Positions 651 through 32,924 of a stretch of DNA of 33,830 nucleotides are shown here, piece by piece. The position numbers and the translations under genes are program-made. The DNA lies in the NCBI GenBank assembly GCA_017555745.1, contig JAFZFU010000037.1, positions 1 through 33,830 on the forward strand, written 5' to 3'. This DNA is from Bacteroidales bacterium (lineage in GTDB: Bacteria; Bacteroidota; Bacteroidia; Bacteroidales; P3). The stretch's first letter is position 1, and every line of letters starts with the position of its first letter. The notes below the pieces were generated by a model. That model worked only from the letters and a program-made list of their open reading frames with translations. It did no database searches and was not told the origin of the DNA.

Positions 651-688
651 ATCCCTTGTCCTTAGTCGGGCAGGGGATTTTTGTTTTT
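651..688 (+). terminator. Rho-independent terminator of the barrel gene
   Basis: ATCCCTTGTCC (651-661) pairs with GGGCAGGGGAT (668-678) through 11 base pairs including two G-U pairs, with a 6-nt loop, and is followed by a T-rich tract TTTTGTTTTT. Confidence 0.8.
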
Positions 689-1015: not shown

Positions 1016-1483
1016 CATCCCGATGCCGTCGAAATTTCCTCGTGATGAAAATTGAACTCCCTCACGATGTAGATAAAACCGCAGCGTGATGTAATTTTAT
1101 CGCCTTTATCAGCAATAAACTTTCGTGCAATATGGTTTATAGTACGATGCTCGATGGTATAATATATGGTGCTGTATGGTATAATATATGAAGCTCTATG
1201 GTACAATATTTGCCATCCCAAAGTCTTTGGGGTACCATGCCAAAGTCTTTGGGAGCATTAGCCAAAGACTTTGGGGGTATTAGCGAAAGTCTTTCGCACA
1301 CCAATGTTTATACCACGCTGCGTGAACATTTGTACCATAGAAAATTATGGTTTATACCATAGCCCATCATCACAAGAGGCTCACTTCGGGATAAAAACCA
1401 TGCGGTTTACGACCCAAAACTACGGCACTTACACCTCAAAACTGCCATAGTTGTGTGTACAAAGATAGCAGTTGTCGATTGGA
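1016..1483. repeat. array of degenerate 22-bp-phased units (array 1)
   Basis: Short motifs recur at exact 22-bp steps through about 470 bases. GATG starts at 1022, 1044, 1066 and 1088. ATGGT starts at 1132, 1154, 1176 and 1198. The 13-15 bp palindromes CCAAAGTCTTTGG (or variants) are centred at 1224, 1246, 1268 and 1290. TTRTACCA starts at 1308, 1330 and 1352. AAC starts at 1396, 1418 and 1440. Neighbouring units resemble one another, but units far apart share little beyond the phase. Many units contain a small dyad, such as CATCCCGATG (1016-1025) or GCGAAAGTCTTTCGC (1283-1297). No ORF with coding character lies here. The same phase and a related CNYGAKG core recur at 17175 and 27309. Confidence 0.75.
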
Positions 1484-1487
1484 TAAA

Positions 1488-1529
1488 ACAAAAAAAGAGC
1501 GATACTTGAGTATAATCCCAAATATCGCT
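1488..1529 (-). terminator. minus-strand terminator
   Basis: Read on the minus strand, AGCGATA (1529-1523) pairs with TATCGCT (1504-1498), followed by a run of T from the A-run at 1488-1496. It would stop transcription coming from greA and the HIT gene after it has crossed the palindromic element at 1541-1735. Confidence 0.65.
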
Positions 1530-17174: not shown

Positions 17175-17310
17175 CCCTCACGAGGACAGCAAAAAGCCCT
17201 CGTGAGGACTGCAAAAATACATCGCGATTGGGTAGAAAAACCATAGCGAGAAAAAAATAAGACCCTACTGTGAAGAGCGTGAAACCCTGGTGTTCGACAC
17301 ATCCATGGTA
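17175..17310. repeat. 22-bp-phased units (array 2)
   Basis: About six units in a 22-bp phase. CACGAGGAC starts at 17179 and CGTGAGGAC at 17201, followed by CGCGAT at 17223, AGCGAG at 17245 and ACTGTGAAG at 17267. Units tend to have an A-run in the middle and end in CCCT or CCAT/ACAT. The first two units create the inverted repeat CCTCACGAGG (17176-17185) / CCTCGTGAGG (17198-17207). The core resembles those of arrays 1 and 3. No gene is present. Confidence 0.7.
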
Positions 17311-27468: not shown

Positions 27469-28449
27469 ATGGAACATTTTGCCATACATAAACTATCAAA
27501 AACACATACTTCGTTGCTGCCAAAGGTTAGCAATAGTTTGTGTTGTGGCAATCCAAATTCAACAGTATACTTCTATCATAGCGACCATCTTGGCAGTGCC
27601 TCATGGATAACCGATGGTGTCGGTACACCTATACAGCACCTACAATATATGCCATACGGCGAACCATTTGTAAACGAAAGAATTTCTTCGTATGAAGAAC
27701 GTTTTACTTTTACGGGAAAAGAAAGGGATAGCGAAACGGGATATAGTTACTTCGGAGCACGGTATTACGATTCGGATATTTTGACCGGGTGGCTGTCTGT
27801 AGATCCAATGGCGGATAAGTTTCCTAATATCTCTCCATACAATTACTGCAATTGGAATCCTGTAAAACTTAAAGACCCTGATGGGGAATTTCCTTTCGTT
27901 ACAAATATCGTGGGTGGTGTAGTATCTGTAGTCGTAGAATATGGCAGCCAGGTTATTGAAAACTGTATAGAAAATAACGGATTATCTATTGGTGCATTCA
28001 CAGATGTTGACGTATTCGATTTAGGAGTTGCTGCAATGGAAGGTTTTGTAACAAGTGGGACTAATATAGTAAAAAAAGCAGTAGTAAAAACAGCAACGGA
28101 AGTTGGAGCATCTATTGTAACTAATGCTGTTGACATATCTACAGATGGAGATGTTAAGATAAATGCTGTTACAGAAATTGGTGTAGGTGTTATCACAGAT
28201 AGAGTAGGTGAAATAAAAGTACTTAATAAAAAATTACATTCTCCTATACCAAAATCAGCAAATAAAGCAGTAAAAGAAGCAAGAGCAGAGAAAGGATCAC
28301 TTCCAACCAAACAAGCTAAACAAATAGCAGAAAAACAAAGGAAAAAAAATGAAGATCAAAAAGCTGTTTATAAAATGCTTGAAGATCAAATTCAAAAACA
28401 TCCAAGTAAAGTATTTGAAGCGATGATAAATAATTTAACGCAAGAATAA
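27469..28449 (+). CDS. RHS-core protein with variable tip, cassette A
   Basis: A 326-residue protein. Residues 30-80 carry a single Rhs repeat end (VYFYHSDHLGSASWITD, then LQYMPYGEPFVNER). Residues 82-140 are the RHS-associated core, TGKERDSETGYSYFGARYYD through GWLSVDPMADKFPN to DPDGE. The tip (141-326) is unlike the other cassettes: a hydrophobic Val/Gly/Thr-rich part (143-235), then a Lys/Glu-rich helical part (about 255-315). It has no signal peptide and lacks the many Rhs repeats that would form a shell. In polymorphic toxin systems the region after the core is the toxin, so this is a candidate toxin tip of unknown activity. The following small gene is the candidate immunity gene. It is the longest of the five cores and the most divergent at DNA level, so it may be the oldest. 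Confidence 0.75.
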   Translation: MEHFAIHKLSKTHTSLLPKVSNSLCCGNPNSTVYFYHSDHLGSASWITDGVGTPIQHLQYMPYGEPFVNERISSYEERFTFTGKERDSETGYSYFGARYYDSDILTGWLSVDPMADKFPNISPYNYCNWNPVKLKDPDGEFPFVTNIVGGVVSVVVEYGSQVIENCIENNGLSIGAFTDVDVFDLGVAAMEGFVTSGTNIVKKAVVKTATEVGASIVTNAVDISTDGDVKINAVTEIGVGVITDRVGEIKVLNKKLHSPIPKSANKAVKEARAEKGSLPTKQAKQIAEKQRKKNEDQKAVYKMLEDQIQKHPSKVFEAMINNLTQE

Positions 28450-28458
28450 ATAACTAAT

Positions 28459-28833
28459 ATGAAGATTAAGAAAAAAAAGAAGCCTACAAAAAAAAGAACC
28501 ATACCTTTAGCTTACATAATTACATGTTTTTTGCTAGGTATAATTTTTATTAGAGCAGAAATAAAAGGTTCTCAACATCAAGAAATGTTACAAGAGATAC
28601 TCAAAGATCCAGTAAAAACACATGCTGTTGTGTATGATAAGGTCAACAAAAGAAGAAAAAGAGCACACCGTAAATATTGTTATAAATTTAGTGTAGATGG
28701 AGTTATTTACAAGGGTAAAGCTACAGAGTTCCACAGCACTAAAAATTTGCACAAAACTAAAATTGGTGACAAGATAGAAGTGCTGTATTTACGAAGTGAT
28801 CCTTCAAAACATGCTTATATAGAAGAATTTTAA
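28459..28833 (+). CDS. DUF3592-like one-TM protein, candidate immunity for cassette A
   Basis: A 124-residue protein starting 9 bases after the cassette A stop. A very basic N-terminus (KIKKKKKPTKKR) precedes one membrane helix (about 18-34, IPLAYIITCFLLGIIF). The rest is predicted to be mostly beta and matches the DUF3592 pattern: THAVVYDKVNKR, YCYKFSVDGVIYKGKA, then KIGDKIEVLYLRSDPSKHAY. DUF3592-like proteins are common as neighbours of toxin tips. Immunity is inferred from position only. Membrane anchoring would fit a toxin acting at or crossing the inner membrane. Confidence 0.6.
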   Translation: MKIKKKKKPTKKRTIPLAYIITCFLLGIIFIRAEIKGSQHQEMLQEILKDPVKTHAVVYDKVNKRRKRAHRKYCYKFSVDGVIYKGKATEFHSTKNLHKTKIGDKIEVLYLRSDPSKHAYIEEF

Positions 28834-28907
28834 TTTAAATCATCATAGTTATATAGAAACATGGAAATAATTTACGACCTTTTACACCTCGAAACTAAGC
28901 AACAATT

Positions 28908-29069
28908 ATGCTACAAACAACCTCAAATATAACCCCGAAATACAGGCAAGAAACGCTCTCTATCCCTATGAAAAATAGTGATTTTTGTGTCTCTGATTGT
29001 TCTCCGTTTTTGTACTATCGTTTCGTTACTACTGCACTTACCGCACAAATTCCTACGGAAACGCTATAA
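28908..29069 (+). pseudogene. remnant of an RHS-cassette leader
   Basis: An open frame of 53 codons begins MLQTTSNITPKYRQET, which aligns with the leader of cassette B (MQQTSTNIIPKYKQKT), but it then diverges and lacks the TGKERDSETG core. In another frame, 29033-29080 reads CTYRTNSYGNAIRYE and stop, where YGNAIRYE looks like an Rhs repeat. Both suggest debris of an earlier cassette or recombination event. A real small gene is possible but less likely. Confidence 0.4.
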
Positions 29070-29095
29070 GATATGAATAATTCAAAATAAATCCG

Positions 29096-29103
29096 TAATT
29101 TTG
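29096..29103 (+). promoter_or_regulatory. -7 box of RHS cassette B
   Basis: TAATTTTG lies exactly 22 nt before the ATG at 29126. The preceding TCAAAATAAAT matches the same position before cassette A. Confidence 0.6.
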
Positions 29104-29125
29104 CAAACCGAAAACAAGTAAAAAC

Positions 29126-29929
29126 ATGCAACAAACAAGCACAAATATAATACCAAAATATAAGCAGAAAACCACTACTTTTTGTAGTGTATCCTCCACC
29201 GGGAAAGAAAGAGACTCAGAAACAGGCTTTTCCTACTTCGGAGCGAGGTATTACGATTCGGATATTTTGACGGGGTGGCTTAGTGTAGATCCGCTTGCGG
29301 ATAAGTACCCTTCGTTGTCGCCTTATGCTTACTGTGGGTGGAACCCTATTAATACAACTGATCCTAACGGCACGGATACGGTTCGTACGCCAAATGGAAT
29401 AACAAATGTAGGAGAAGGATACAAAACGACACCTGATGGAAAATATCTTTATGGTGAAGGTTTACAAACAAAATGTTGGAATCCTGACCTAGAGATTGGA
29501 GGTGTTATTGGTGAAGATCTTCGTGGAGGGTATGAGAATTGTGATAATAGTGGAATATCTGTAATAAATAATATTGAAAATACATTAGCAGTTGGAGTTC
29601 CTGCTGTAGTATCGATAGGAAGTGTTTTGTCCGACATTGTTATGGATGCAACAGCTATAATTGAAGCAACCGCTATAAGGTTTCTTGGAATTTTGGGTGG
29701 AAGTTTATTACTCTCTGGAGATACAAGGCAAACTAAAGAAATGTCTCAACATGGAAAAAAGAACATAAAACTTTCTCCAGAAGAAGTCAAACGTTGTAAA
29801 GATATTCTTAACAACCCAAAATCAACAAAAAAAGAAAGAACTGAAGCAAAACAAAAACTAAAAACTCATGAAAAGTCAGAAGGAATACGGCAATCTAGAC
29901 AATCAAAAGATAAAAAAACAAAAAAATAA
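29126..29929 (+). CDS. RHS-core protein with basic tip, cassette B
   Basis: A 267-residue protein with a short leader (1-24, NIIPKYKQKTTTFCSV) followed directly by the RHS core at residues 25-82, ending TTDPNG. The tip has a Thr/Gly-rich part, a hydrophobic stretch (about 155-196, AVVSIGSVLSDIVMDATAII and AIRFLGILGGSLLL), and a strongly basic end (about 208-267, LSPEEVKRCKDILNNPKS, then KQKLKTHEKSEG). A basic terminal domain would fit a nucleic-acid target, but I see no catalytic motif, so its activity is open. It has no signal peptide and no Rhs repeats. The last 62 bases overlap the start of the next gene in another frame. The tip is more AT-rich than the core. Confidence 0.72.
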   Translation: MQQTSTNIIPKYKQKTTTFCSVSSTGKERDSETGFSYFGARYYDSDILTGWLSVDPLADKYPSLSPYAYCGWNPINTTDPNGTDTVRTPNGITNVGEGYKTTPDGKYLYGEGLQTKCWNPDLEIGGVIGEDLRGGYENCDNSGISVINNIENTLAVGVPAVVSIGSVLSDIVMDATAIIEATAIRFLGILGGSLLLSGDTRQTKEMSQHGKKNIKLSPEEVKRCKDILNNPKSTKKERTEAKQKLKTHEKSEGIRQSRQSKDKKTKK

Positions 29930-30566
29930 TATACTAAATTTTGATTTTCTATCTGAAGAAAGAAAAGACTACATTCTTTTAAGTGAAGAATTAAATGCAA
30001 TATTAGATATCCCTAAGTTATCAAAGAAAATATTTAATATCATTCTTGATGACAAAACTTTAAATAAGCTCTCTGTCGGAGATATCCTAGAAAAGTATGA
30101 GAATTTTACGAAAATACAATTAATCAAAATTAGAAGATATATACATTCTCACCTATATGATAAAAATCCATTATTTGTGTCAGATCTTATAGATTGTGCA
30201 AATTGGAATAACATAGAGAGTGATATTATTTTTGATTTTTGCATAAATGCAATTAAAAAATATCGGACATCTCCTATCGTTTTATCGGCTATCACGTATG
30301 TTTTTGAGCATATGAAAATATCGCAGAGTGTGGTCGTCGTTCCTATTTTTGATCGTCTTCTTAATAACAAAACATATTATCAAGACTGTCAAATTATTGC
30401 AGCATTCTGTTTATTTCGTATCACAATGAATCCAAAATATTTACAAGTGATAAAGGAATTAACCATATTAGATAATGAATTACACAACGTATTAATAAAT
30501 AAAATGCTACATATGGATTATAACAAGAAGAATTGTTTTTTTTATCAAAAAGACGATTTTATTTGA
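29868..30566 (+). CDS. HEAT-like helical protein, candidate immunity for cassette B
   Basis: A 232-residue, all-helical protein. About residues 60-215 show repeating paired helices in the HEAT/Armadillo style (TKIQLIKIRRYIHSHLYD, SDIIFDFCINAIKKY, SPIVLSAITYVFEHM, DCQIIAAFCLFRITMNP). HEAT-like proteins are frequent immunity partners of polymorphic toxins. The only in-frame ATG is inside the end of cassette B, giving a 62-base overlap; its first 20 residues are Lys/Asn-rich and may be shorter in reality if a non-ATG start is used. Position and fold suggest immunity, not proven. Confidence 0.6.
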   Translation: MKSQKEYGNLDNQKIKKQKNNILNFDFLSEERKDYILLSEELNAILDIPKLSKKIFNIILDDKTLNKLSVGDILEKYENFTKIQLIKIRRYIHSHLYDKNPLFVSDLIDCANWNNIESDIIFDFCINAIKKYRTSPIVLSAITYVFEHMKISQSVVVVPIFDRLLNNKTYYQDCQIIAAFCLFRITMNPKYLQVIKELTILDNELHNVLINKMLHMDYNKKNCFFYQKDDFI

Positions 30567-30689
30567 ATTTATCAAACTTAAACTTTTGACGTAATTCTAA
30601 ATTAATAATTTAATTATAAAGGTTAACGAGGTCATTAACAGTATCTAATTTATTGCAGTAAATTATTTTTGTGGTATAATATTTCATGT

Positions 30690-30737
30690 AAAAGTCGGGA
30701 CAAAACTACTCTATATCGAAATAAATGTGTAATTTTG
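30690..30737 (+). promoter_or_regulatory. control region of RHS cassette C
   Basis: Starts with AAAAGTCGGGAC at 30690, has ATAAATGTGTAATTTTGCAG around the -7 box TAATTTTG at 30730-30737, and is near-identical to 27399-27446. It is 22 nt before the ATG at 30760. The 123 bases between the previous stop and this region hold no feature I can support. Confidence 0.65.
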
Positions 30738-30759
30738 CAGCCGCAAACTAATGACAATT

Positions 30760-31542
30760 ATGGTGCAAATACGACCAAAATATAAGCAAAAAAACACTCT
30801 GTTTGTGTCTCTCACCTCTACCGGGAAAGAAAGAGACTCAGAGACAGGCTTTTCCTACTTCGGAGCAAGGTATTACGATTCGGATTTGATGACGGGGTGG
30901 TTGTCTGTGGATCCTATGGCGGATAAGTATCCTGGTTTGTCGCCTTATGGTTATTGTGGTTGGAATCCTATAGGATTAATTGATACTAATGGAATGGAAT
31001 ATGGTGGTTGGGATAAATTCAAACGCTACGCTAGTGGGGGATTAAATATAGCGGCTGGTGGATTTACTGTTTTGGGAGGAGCATTTGTAGGTGCGGGATT
31101 AACTATATTAGGATGCGGTCCATTGGCATTTACAGCAGGTGCTTTCATGTTTACTACGGGAGCATACGAGATAACACAAGGTATCCATAAAATAACAAAC
31201 GTAGCAACTGATACTCCTGAATCTCAAGATCCTCAATATACTACTCCTCTTGGAGAAGCAACAAATAACACCTATGTTGATATGGGAACATCTATTTTAG
31301 TTGGATATGGACCAGCTGCTGTTTCGAAACTTTCAAAACTTTCAAAAGCAACATCAAAACTTTCTGATGAAAAACAAGCAACAATGAGTTGGGGAGCATT
31401 TGTAACAGGTGCAGATATTACATTTCCATTAATAACTACACAACAAAAAGATAACCAATCAAAAGACAATAAAGTTTATAGTCAAGATAATAAAACTTCG
31501 TATCAATATAAACCAGAAGAGATTCAAGTGCCATTTTTATAG
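30760..31542 (+). CDS. RHS-core protein with Gly-rich hydrophobic tip, cassette C
   Basis: The start at 30760 is preferred over the ATG at 30751 because it keeps the 22-nt distance to the -7 box seen in cassettes A and B. The 260-residue protein has leader VQIRPKYKQKNTLF, then the RHS core (about 21-80). The core ends LIDTNGME: the proline of the usual DPNG or DPDG is Thr here. The tip contains a long Gly/Ala/Phe-rich hydrophobic segment (about 92-142, LNIAAGGFTVLGGAFVGAGL), typical of membrane-inserting pre-toxin or pore-forming regions, then a Ser/Lys-rich stretch and a polar end. Candidate membrane-acting toxin; no enzyme motif found. Confidence 0.72.
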   Translation: MVQIRPKYKQKNTLFVSLTSTGKERDSETGFSYFGARYYDSDLMTGWLSVDPMADKYPGLSPYGYCGWNPIGLIDTNGMEYGGWDKFKRYASGGLNIAAGGFTVLGGAFVGAGLTILGCGPLAFTAGAFMFTTGAYEITQGIHKITNVATDTPESQDPQYTTPLGEATNNTYVDMGTSILVGYGPAAVSKLSKLSKATSKLSDEKQATMSWGAFVTGADITFPLITTQQKDNQSKDNKVYSQDNKTSYQYKPEEIQVPFL

Positions 31543-31551
31543 TAATAAAAT

Positions 31552-32163
31552 ATGAAACAACGATTTATATATGATTTAGGTAAGGATAAGAATTTTATAC
31601 AAATGTTTTTAGGAGATATTGTTAGAGAATTAAAACTAGGTATTCCATTATTAACTATGGCGGTTTTTGCCAACTATAATGAAGGTGATTCTTTACTTAA
31701 GGTAATAATGATTATATATGCAACTTGTTTTGTCCTATTTTTACCCAAAATTATATCCTATTTCCGTAAACATAAATATCTTGCATATGAATTATTCTTT
31801 GATGAAAAGTCTTTAACCATCACTTATGCTAAGTACTTTGTTATAAACAAAAGTATTTCGATTTCTTATAATGATTTATCATTTGCAGTAAAGACATTTA
31901 CTTACGCAGGATACTTTCCAGACGAAACATGCATACGAATATACTCAAATCATAAGTTTGTATTATTTTTAAGAAGTGGTGGCTGGTATCAAGAAATAAT
32001 AATAGAAATAATAAAGGTTTTACTTGATGTTACCAATAATACACTCGAAGTTCCTCTTAATAAAAGAAAATTATTCAAAGAGGAATATCTTTACACTATG
32101 GAATTAAAGAAATCAGGAGTGGCAAAACAATTAATAGCTATTAGTAATAAAATGAATAAATAA
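31552..32163 (+). CDS. two-TM protein, candidate immunity for cassette C
   Basis: A 203-residue protein starting 9 bases after cassette C. Two membrane helices lie close together near residues 28-40 and 49-72 (LGIPLLTMAVFA; VIMIIYATCFVLFLPKII), followed by a beta-rich soluble part (YELFFDEKSLTITYAKYFVI, TCIRIYSNHKFVLFLRSG) that resembles YcxB-like or PH-like membrane proteins. An inner-membrane immunity protein fits a toxin that inserts into membranes. Its stop overlaps the next start as TAATG, so cassette D is probably translationally coupled to it. Confidence 0.6.
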   Translation: MKQRFIYDLGKDKNFIQMFLGDIVRELKLGIPLLTMAVFANYNEGDSLLKVIMIIYATCFVLFLPKIISYFRKHKYLAYELFFDEKSLTITYAKYFVINKSISISYNDLSFAVKTFTYAGYFPDETCIRIYSNHKFVLFLRSGGWYQEIIIEIIKVLLDVTNNTLEVPLNKRKLFKEEYLYTMELKKSGVAKQLIAISNKMNK

Positions 32164-32924
32164 TGCCTCAAAACCAACTGAAATACAATCAAAAATACTC
32201 TCAACCTTTTACCGGGAAAGAAAGAGACTCAGAGACAGGCTTTTCCTACTTCGGAGCACGATATTACGATTCGGATTTGATGACGGGGTGGTTAAGTGTA
32301 GATCCGCTTGCGGATAAATATCCATCTTTGTCGCCGTACAACTATTGTGCATTAAATCCTATTCGAGTTGTAGACCCAAATGGGGATAGTTGTGCAGTAC
32401 TGCTAGTTGATGATAGATTTCCTTACGTTGGACATATGGCAATACTTGTTCAAGGTGAAGGAGATGATAATAATTGGTATCTTTATTCTAGAGATGGTGA
32501 AGGCAAGTCCGTATTAGGAACTCCGAATCAAGTAGAAGTAGGACCTTATGAATCTGTTCAAAAGTTTATTGATACTTATAAACTTGATGACACAGATAAA
32601 AATCCTTATTATACAGAAGCGTATATTTTACCTACTAGCCCTGCTCAAGATAAGATTATTCGAGAAACTATGACAAAAGAATTAAAAGAAGACTATAATT
32701 TACTGTTAAACAATTGTGCTCAAGCTGTAAATAATTCATTGATTGCAGCCGGGGTAAATACTGATGGCAATCCTTTTTCCACAGGTAGTCCCCTGCACAC
32801 TACTTTACCATTTACCCATCTATTAAAAAATATAGAAGATAATATTATGCCATTTCCGATGTATCGTAATATAATGTATTCCAATCCAAATGGTAGAATA
32901 GTAAAAAGAACAGGTAAGAAATGA
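32163..32924 (+). CDS. RHS-core protein with permuted papain-like tip, cassette D
   Basis: A 253-residue protein. The leader is only 16 residues (QLKYNQKYSQPF), the RHS core is 17-74 (TGKERDSETG to VVDPNG), and the tip is 75-253. The tip has VGHMAILVQGEGDD followed by NWYLYSRDGEG, and later YNLLLNNCAQAVNNSLIAAG. His91 before Cys185 in an NNCA context is the order seen in permuted papain-like enzymes (LRAT/NlpC-P60-like, DUF4105-like). Such tips may act as amidases or peptidases, possibly on peptidoglycan or lipids. The start codon overlaps the previous stop (TAATG) and the stop overlaps the next start (ATGATG). No signal peptide and no Rhs repeats. Confidence 0.72.
   Translation: MPQNQLKYNQKYSQPFTGKERDSETGFSYFGARYYDSDLMTGWLSVDPLADKYPSLSPYNYCALNPIRVVDPNGDSCAVLLVDDRFPYVGHMAILVQGEGDDNNWYLYSRDGEGKSVLGTPNQVEVGPYESVQKFIDTYKLDDTDKNPYYTEAYILPTSPAQDKIIRETMTKELKEDYNLLLNNCAQAVNNSLIAAGVNTDGNPFSTGSPLHTTLPFTHLLKNIEDNIMPFPMYRNIMYSNPNGRIVKRTGKK

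Follow-up and report, generated by a model that had tools for sequence, protein, structure and literature searches.

The spacer between two convergent genes near the left end of the window (the whole stretch of 33,830 nucleotides that was analysed) raises the question of why very different short motifs should follow one another at a common step of 22 bp. The window corresponds to contig 16 of G000, a 2.38-Mb Bacteroidales metagenome genome with a fragmented assembly, whose nearest named relatives are genomes from sheep rectum and water-buffalo rectum. Within 1016–1483, 222 of 446 positions match at lag 22 (z = 12.5 against dinucleotide-preserving shuffles); the same test gives z = 7.8 at lag 44, z = 4.2 at lag 66 and no excess at lag 11 (z = −1.5). 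Tandem Repeats Finder (TRF) independently detects the period of 22 at 1131–1209 and 1218–1294. The 22-bp repetition proposed in a preliminary description of this DNA is thus real. Chance periodicity or an assembly artefact is scarcely credible as its source: the metagenome assembly is fragmented and short repeats can collapse, but none of the 500 shuffles reaches the observed value, and the compound element described below recurs in independently assembled genomes.

The periodicity is not, however, a single strict phase running through some 470 bp, as it had been first described. Likeness between units is confined to five blocks of three or four units each, with the motifs GATG, ATGGTAYAA, CCAAAGWCTTTGG, TTRTACCAT and AAACC..GGTTT, and at the block junctions the unit lying 22 bp further on matches only at the chance level. 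The parts of the locus are the following.

651–685, plus strand: intrinsic terminator of the left gene (14–619), with an 11-bp stem and a T tail, −18.2 kcal/mol
815–898: C-rich array beside array 1, 3.7 copies of the 23-bp unit ACCCCTACCCCTTTTTGTACAAA (TRF)
1016–1103: block 1 of array 1, four 22-bp units with CATC(N2)GATG-type dyads, neighbours matching at 10–14 of 22 positions at offset 0
1104–1125: spacer without lag-22 similarity
1126–1213: block 2, four units with ATGGTAYAA, neighbours matching at 13–19 of 22 positions, containing the first of the two TRF runs
1214–1301: block 3 (core), four units with the palindrome CCAAAGWCTTTGG / CGAAAGTCTTTCG, centred at 1224, 1246, 1268 and 1290
1302–1367: block 4, three units with TTRTACCAT, the inverted form of the block 2 motif
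1368–1389: spacer CATCACAAGAGGCTCACTTCGG, which by the alignment of copies belongs to the conserved compound element
1390–1455: block 5, three units, AAACCATGCGGTTT / AACTACGGCACTT / AACTGCCATAGTT
1498–1529, minus strand: intrinsic terminator on the HIT side, facing the array from the right

Perfect dyads are found at exactly the four core centres that had been predicted, and neighbouring units are indeed the most alike, the identity being 0.50, 0.42, 0.35, 0.28 and 0.25 at a distance of one to five units (chance 0.26), so that the likeness is down to the chance level about four units away. The run of repeats had been estimated at about twenty units ending at 1483; about 18 are recognisable and they stop near 1455, since 1456–1483 has no lag-22 excess. 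The dyad centres of blocks 2–5, taken modulo 22, lie at 14.5, 14, 13.5 and 15.5, a common register within about 2 bp. The centre of the GATG block lies at 8.5, about 5.5 bp or roughly half a helical turn away, and the suggestion that all sites face the same side of the DNA therefore fails for the whole stretch.

Array 1 is one of many such arrays in this genome. In a first sample of 319 kb, 32 segments were periodic at lag 22 versus at most five at any other lag between 13 and 41; this sample had been picked partly for array matches, so the test was rerun on 378 kb chosen otherwise, where lag 22 gave 17 segments and lag 44 gave 12. A marginally altered set of gene calls yields 17 and 13, against a mean of 0.06 per lag in shuffled sequence. 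Period 22 outranks every other period in the intergenic DNA of the 378-kb sample. Arrays occupy 16 of its 121 spacers, which extrapolates to about 100 arrays per genome; all these genome-wide figures rest on sampled stretches of G000. The motifs differ from array to array and many are palindromic (CTATCGCCGATAG, TGCGAGTGCCACTCGCA, AAAGTACTTT, CATCACGATG, and GAGTTAACTC in the relative L011). Perfect 6-bp dyads are about six-fold enriched inside arrays (23 versus 3.7 expected) and close to expectation outside them (46 versus 40). In the window itself, a second 22-bp array with CCCTCACGAGGACAGCAAAAAG units is present at 17175–17292, downstream of a radC-like gene. Farther along, at 27469–32924, four successive ORFs each contain an Rhs/YD-repeat-like segment (TGKERDSETGFSYFGARYYDSD..GWLSVDPLADKY) followed by differing tails, with small ORFs interleaved; the region resembles a series of Rhs C-terminal cassettes arranged in tandem, some of the small ORFs perhaps being their partner genes.

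The genes around array 1, named from their sequences, are an outer-membrane-type gene ending at 619 (plus strand) and, on the other side, a HIT-family gene ending at 1753 (minus strand), followed by a greA-like gene. As array 1 is enclosed by the facing terminators at 651–685 (plus) and 1529–1498 (minus), it separates the 3' ends of two transcription units that converge on it, and is probably not part of either mRNA. The right-hand terminator is parted from the HIT gene by a MITE and lies directly 3' of that gene in the MITE-free orthologue L009. The MITE itself (1540–1736), which is missing from the orthologous locus L009, has perfect 18-bp terminal inverted repeats, AGGCAACTTCTAAAAATT; each of the six genomes of the genus contains about 46–58 scored matches to it.

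This arrangement bears on the possibility that the array acts as a structured RNA, either a transcript of many small hairpins or a stabiliser of mRNA 3' ends. The predicted folds are better than shuffled on both strands (z −5.8 and −6.2). In addition, blocks 2 and 4 pair across the core as an inverted repeat (1166–1206 / 1330–1370, 73%), the pairing is retained in most of 13 copies, and at some stem positions these copies carry pair-keeping changes on both sides. A count of covarying 13-mers was set aside, as its selection favoured paired stems. Palindromic DNA, however, necessarily yields an equal fold signal on both strands, and the array folded as DNA scores z −5.5. Array 1 matched no known RNA family in Rfam, and the sole match to a Bacteroidetes-type promoter, at 1460–1492, is near the chance level. 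Across the sample, a terminator is detectable before the array at 18 of 31 gene ends that face one (only such ends being counted), and the arrays have no bias to convergent spacers (4 of 22 convergent, 6 of 69 co-directional and 6 of 30 divergent spacers contain one). The RNA reading of the preliminary description is weakened accordingly and we consider it very unlikely. The family as a whole generally appears to occupy intergenic spacers outside transcripts.

The DNA of array 1 was found in each of the six genus members but not in any of 15 further genomes, and each of the six has related copies at several non-orthologous loci. Blocks 2–5 recur as a compound element in the order [ATGGTAYAA]n – (CCAAAGWCTTTGG)n – [TTRTACCAT]n – [AAACC..GGTTT]n, each of the best-sampled genomes having it at a few loci. 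Units related to block 1 occur at dozens of loci in the genus, and block 5 is also dispersed alone at more than 90% identity. Copies of 81–95% identity in G002, G004 and G005 have flanks that differ from those in the window, which rules out homology across loci by way of flanking genes. A shared gene 3' end, read as a leader ...NKLRHVIAHYMVAVWY, was also rejected, the frames concerned being short ORFs that run into the array and not real genes. The 95%-identical copy in G002 sits at a different locus from the HIT spacer, and the G002 spacer that does lie beside HIT (L009, with genes 90.7% identical) contains only a short, different AAACC-type array. The compound element has therefore moved, or copies were lost differentially.

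Copies differ from each other mostly by whole steps of 22 or 44 bp. When loci listed twice are counted once, there are 12 distinct gaps of 22 bp and three of 44 bp between copies, and no 22-bp gap in the neighbouring MITE used as a control. One orthologous spacer, which follows a MORN-like gene, contains 6 cores in one species, 1 in a second and 7 in a third, so that tandem units vary in number by whole units as they do in a VNTR. All 40 spacings between neighbouring cores in the genus are 22 bp, and two compound copies align without gaps, at 72% identity over 267 bp and 69% over 207 bp. Small gaps per substitution amount to 0.032 in arrays versus 0.075 in the MITE, a rough comparison affected by the kinship of the copies and by alignment noise in the small gaps of arrays.

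Several kinds of known element were considered as a source of such dispersed copies. A mosaic of palindromic modules that is intergenic, dispersed and variable in copy number could be made of REP-type mobile palindromes (BIMEs) spread in trans by a Y1 transposase (RAYT). A match to Y1_Tnp is, however, found in none of the six genomes of the genus, versus 10 of 15 other Bacteroidales genomes, and this explanation is largely refuted unless the transposase was lost or was missed in the incomplete genomes; we give it a very small likelihood. Phage or plasmid origin was rejected as no match was found in 50,697 phage records, 72,556 plasmid records and viral contigs. A CRISPR array was rejected as well: the units are a contiguous palindrome and linker and are not separated by spacers, and no cas-like ORF was recognised in the ORF list of the window.

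The palindromic cores are found in both orientations within units that otherwise share one orientation. In a single array of L009, the core AAGTGCCATACTT is followed, two units further along, by its exact reverse complement, AAGTATGGCACTT, while the linkers keep the same orientation. Among 53 array cores the centre base is T in 31 and A in 22, and never G or C, and core pairing persists through two-sided changes (46 of 53 versus 35 expected, and 35 of 53 versus 27). The reverse-complement core of L009 and the restriction of the CCAAAGWCTTTGG core to A or T at its centre jointly suggest that cores invert in place, as by hairpin-templated strand switching. Alternatively, the A/T-only centre could stem from selection on a binding site; a selected W in that position would account for this feature, though not for the reverse-complement pair of L009.

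On balance, and with moderate confidence, we regard array 1 as belonging to a family of mosaic minisatellites, rich in palindromes and specific to the genus, which resembles BIMEs and BrickBuilt elements and evolves by slippage of whole units and by template switching at palindromes. The arrays would lengthen and shorten through in-register slippage between adjacent units. Hairpins formed by the palindromes during replication may lead to template switching, which would both repair the palindromes and invert their centres in place, and pieces of the mosaic would be copied to new spacers without a Y1/RAYT transposase. The phase would be retained because exchange requires register, and a need for two helical turns may add to this. 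In favour of the minisatellite are the single 22-bp unit length that spans unrelated motifs, the short homogeneous blocks and the mostly whole-unit gains and losses. Of the three readings in the preliminary description, the slowly evolving minisatellite has the best support, from the whole-unit differences and the decay of likeness with distance, but array 1 is not a lone minisatellite, being a member of a mosaic family dispersed across the genus. Against it, slippage alone fails to account for unrelated motifs that all share 22 bp, and the two gap-free alignments at about 70% identity represent more conservation of phase than neutral sequence should show. No target-site duplication, element ends or mobilising protein were found for the array family.

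The shared length may go back either to one founder whose descendants kept its register or to a physical constraint near two helical turns. One such constraint would be a nucleoprotein platform phased at two turns: each unit would serve as a dyad for a dimeric protein, either DNA-binding or of the nucleoid, and neighbouring dyads would be held one or two helical turns apart by selection. We consider this a possible but not a probable account. Exact 22-bp spacing across unrelated palindromes, the gap-free alignments, and the single register of blocks 2–5 with a phase unusually well kept inside the compound element are all as such a platform would have them. The motifs, however, are wholly different from array to array, so that one sequence-specific protein would not suit them all; the GATG block is shifted by half a turn; 22 bp drifts relative to the 10.5-bp helix; and the predicted curvature is raised only modestly (mean z 1.3, from wedge values). 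Nor was a common phase found between neighbouring arrays, where the mean offset is 4.9 against 5.5 by chance (six pairs only).

Other lineages give evidence on both sides. G007 belongs to another genus of the family and carries separate intergenic arrays of 21 bp (eight segments at lag 21 and four at lag 42; L112–L114, L218–L224), which are little palindromic (7 dyads versus 5.1). Across 77 sampled Bacteroidales loci, the tandem period seen most often between genes is 11 bp (8 loci, the next having 3), in several cases in the form of the long hairpins of L023, L042 and L044 given below. These cases agree with a platform. G006, from yet another genus of the family, has intergenic periods of 8, 16, 24, 32 and 40 bp (L109–L111, L230–L233) and one long hairpin made of 11-bp repeats (L111, 12400–12501); its 8, 16 and 24 bp, as well as the 23 bp of P. 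gingivalis (PMC4596501), speak against one. Long near-perfect hairpins with stems of 11-bp repeats were also noticed in other Bacteroidales, at L023 1319–1485, L042 4539–4629 and L044 4540–4628, the latter two just downstream of a HIT gene. Periods of one or two helical turns are recurrent among Bacteroidales lineages but not universal. As regards the two options, the absence of a common register in the six pairs and the varied periods of other lineages incline towards one founder, and the gap-free alignments and the separate 21-bp case incline towards a physical constraint.

A broader reading, which we think rather unlikely, is that the intergenic DNA of Bacteroidales is built to a length rule of one or two turns of the helix, at 11, 21 or 22 bp according to the lineage, with unrelated palindromes kept at this spacing because a general nucleoid protein or a topological process needs or creates it, and with the spacing conserved instead of the sequence. 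The unit lengths of bacterial minisatellites are normally arbitrary. Here, dozens of arrays of unrelated sequence have one exact unit length, and a sister genus does likewise at 21 bp, so that something may measure length; should it be a protein or a process of replication, it could be assayed naturally in these genomes. If palindrome centres do flip in place, they would also preserve a legible trace of replication errors templated by hairpins.

Among known systems, the literature searched contains no description of these 22-bp arrays beyond a lead to the 23-nt BrickBuilt elements. BrickBuilt elements of Porphyromonas gingivalis consist of imperfect 23-nt tandem repeats in about 19 intergenic copies per genome, with whole-unit length variation among strains, a leader–repeats–tail mosaic structure and predicted long stem loops; their ends carry terminal inverted repeats like those of IS5-family elements, with target-site duplications at some copies (PMC4596501). 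The 22-bp arrays resemble them in the Bacteroidales host, the near-equal unit length, the intergenic copies, the whole-unit variation, the mosaic and the predicted stem loops. BrickBuilt is, however, one repeat family, whereas here many unrelated motifs are built on a 22-bp unit and most arrays have their own palindrome; only the neighbouring array at 815–898 has a unit of 23 bp. Nor were terminal repeats or duplications found for the 22-bp arrays: where BrickBuilt has 12-bp inverted repeats at its leader and tail, no inverted pair bounds 1016–1455 or 1105–1452, the ends of the element being undefined.

Iteron and plasmid centromere arrays, with repeats of about 11–22 bp in helical phase, are similar in their dimensions. 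They are single-locus, conserved in sequence and adjacent to rep or par genes, none of which is true of array 1; an origin or centromere was rejected for a locus whose neighbours are an outer-membrane-type gene and HIT/greA and whose family occupies dozens of loci per genome. The intergenic DNA of E. coli has an 11-bp ApA/TpT periodicity, a statistical phase of dinucleotides (PMC516772), which is likewise a period of helical scale concentrated in intergenic DNA; the 22-bp arrays, by contrast, are genuine tandem repeats, and array 1 has no excess at lag 11. Closer are the REP/BIME sequences, which are also mosaics built from short palindromes with linkers, intergenic, dispersed, tandem and alternating in orientation, and the 22-bp arrays do form an intergenic mosaic of palindromic units in many copies. 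The differences lie in the strict 22-bp unit imposed on unrelated palindromes, the lack of any RAYT (Y1) match in the genus and the usual position beyond a terminator. By the features compared, with no RAYT, no 23-nt unit and no terminal repeats found, the array family fits neither BIME nor BrickBuilt. It is probably a family of repeats that spreads, comparable to the mosaic elements known from other bacteria, and not a device of established function.
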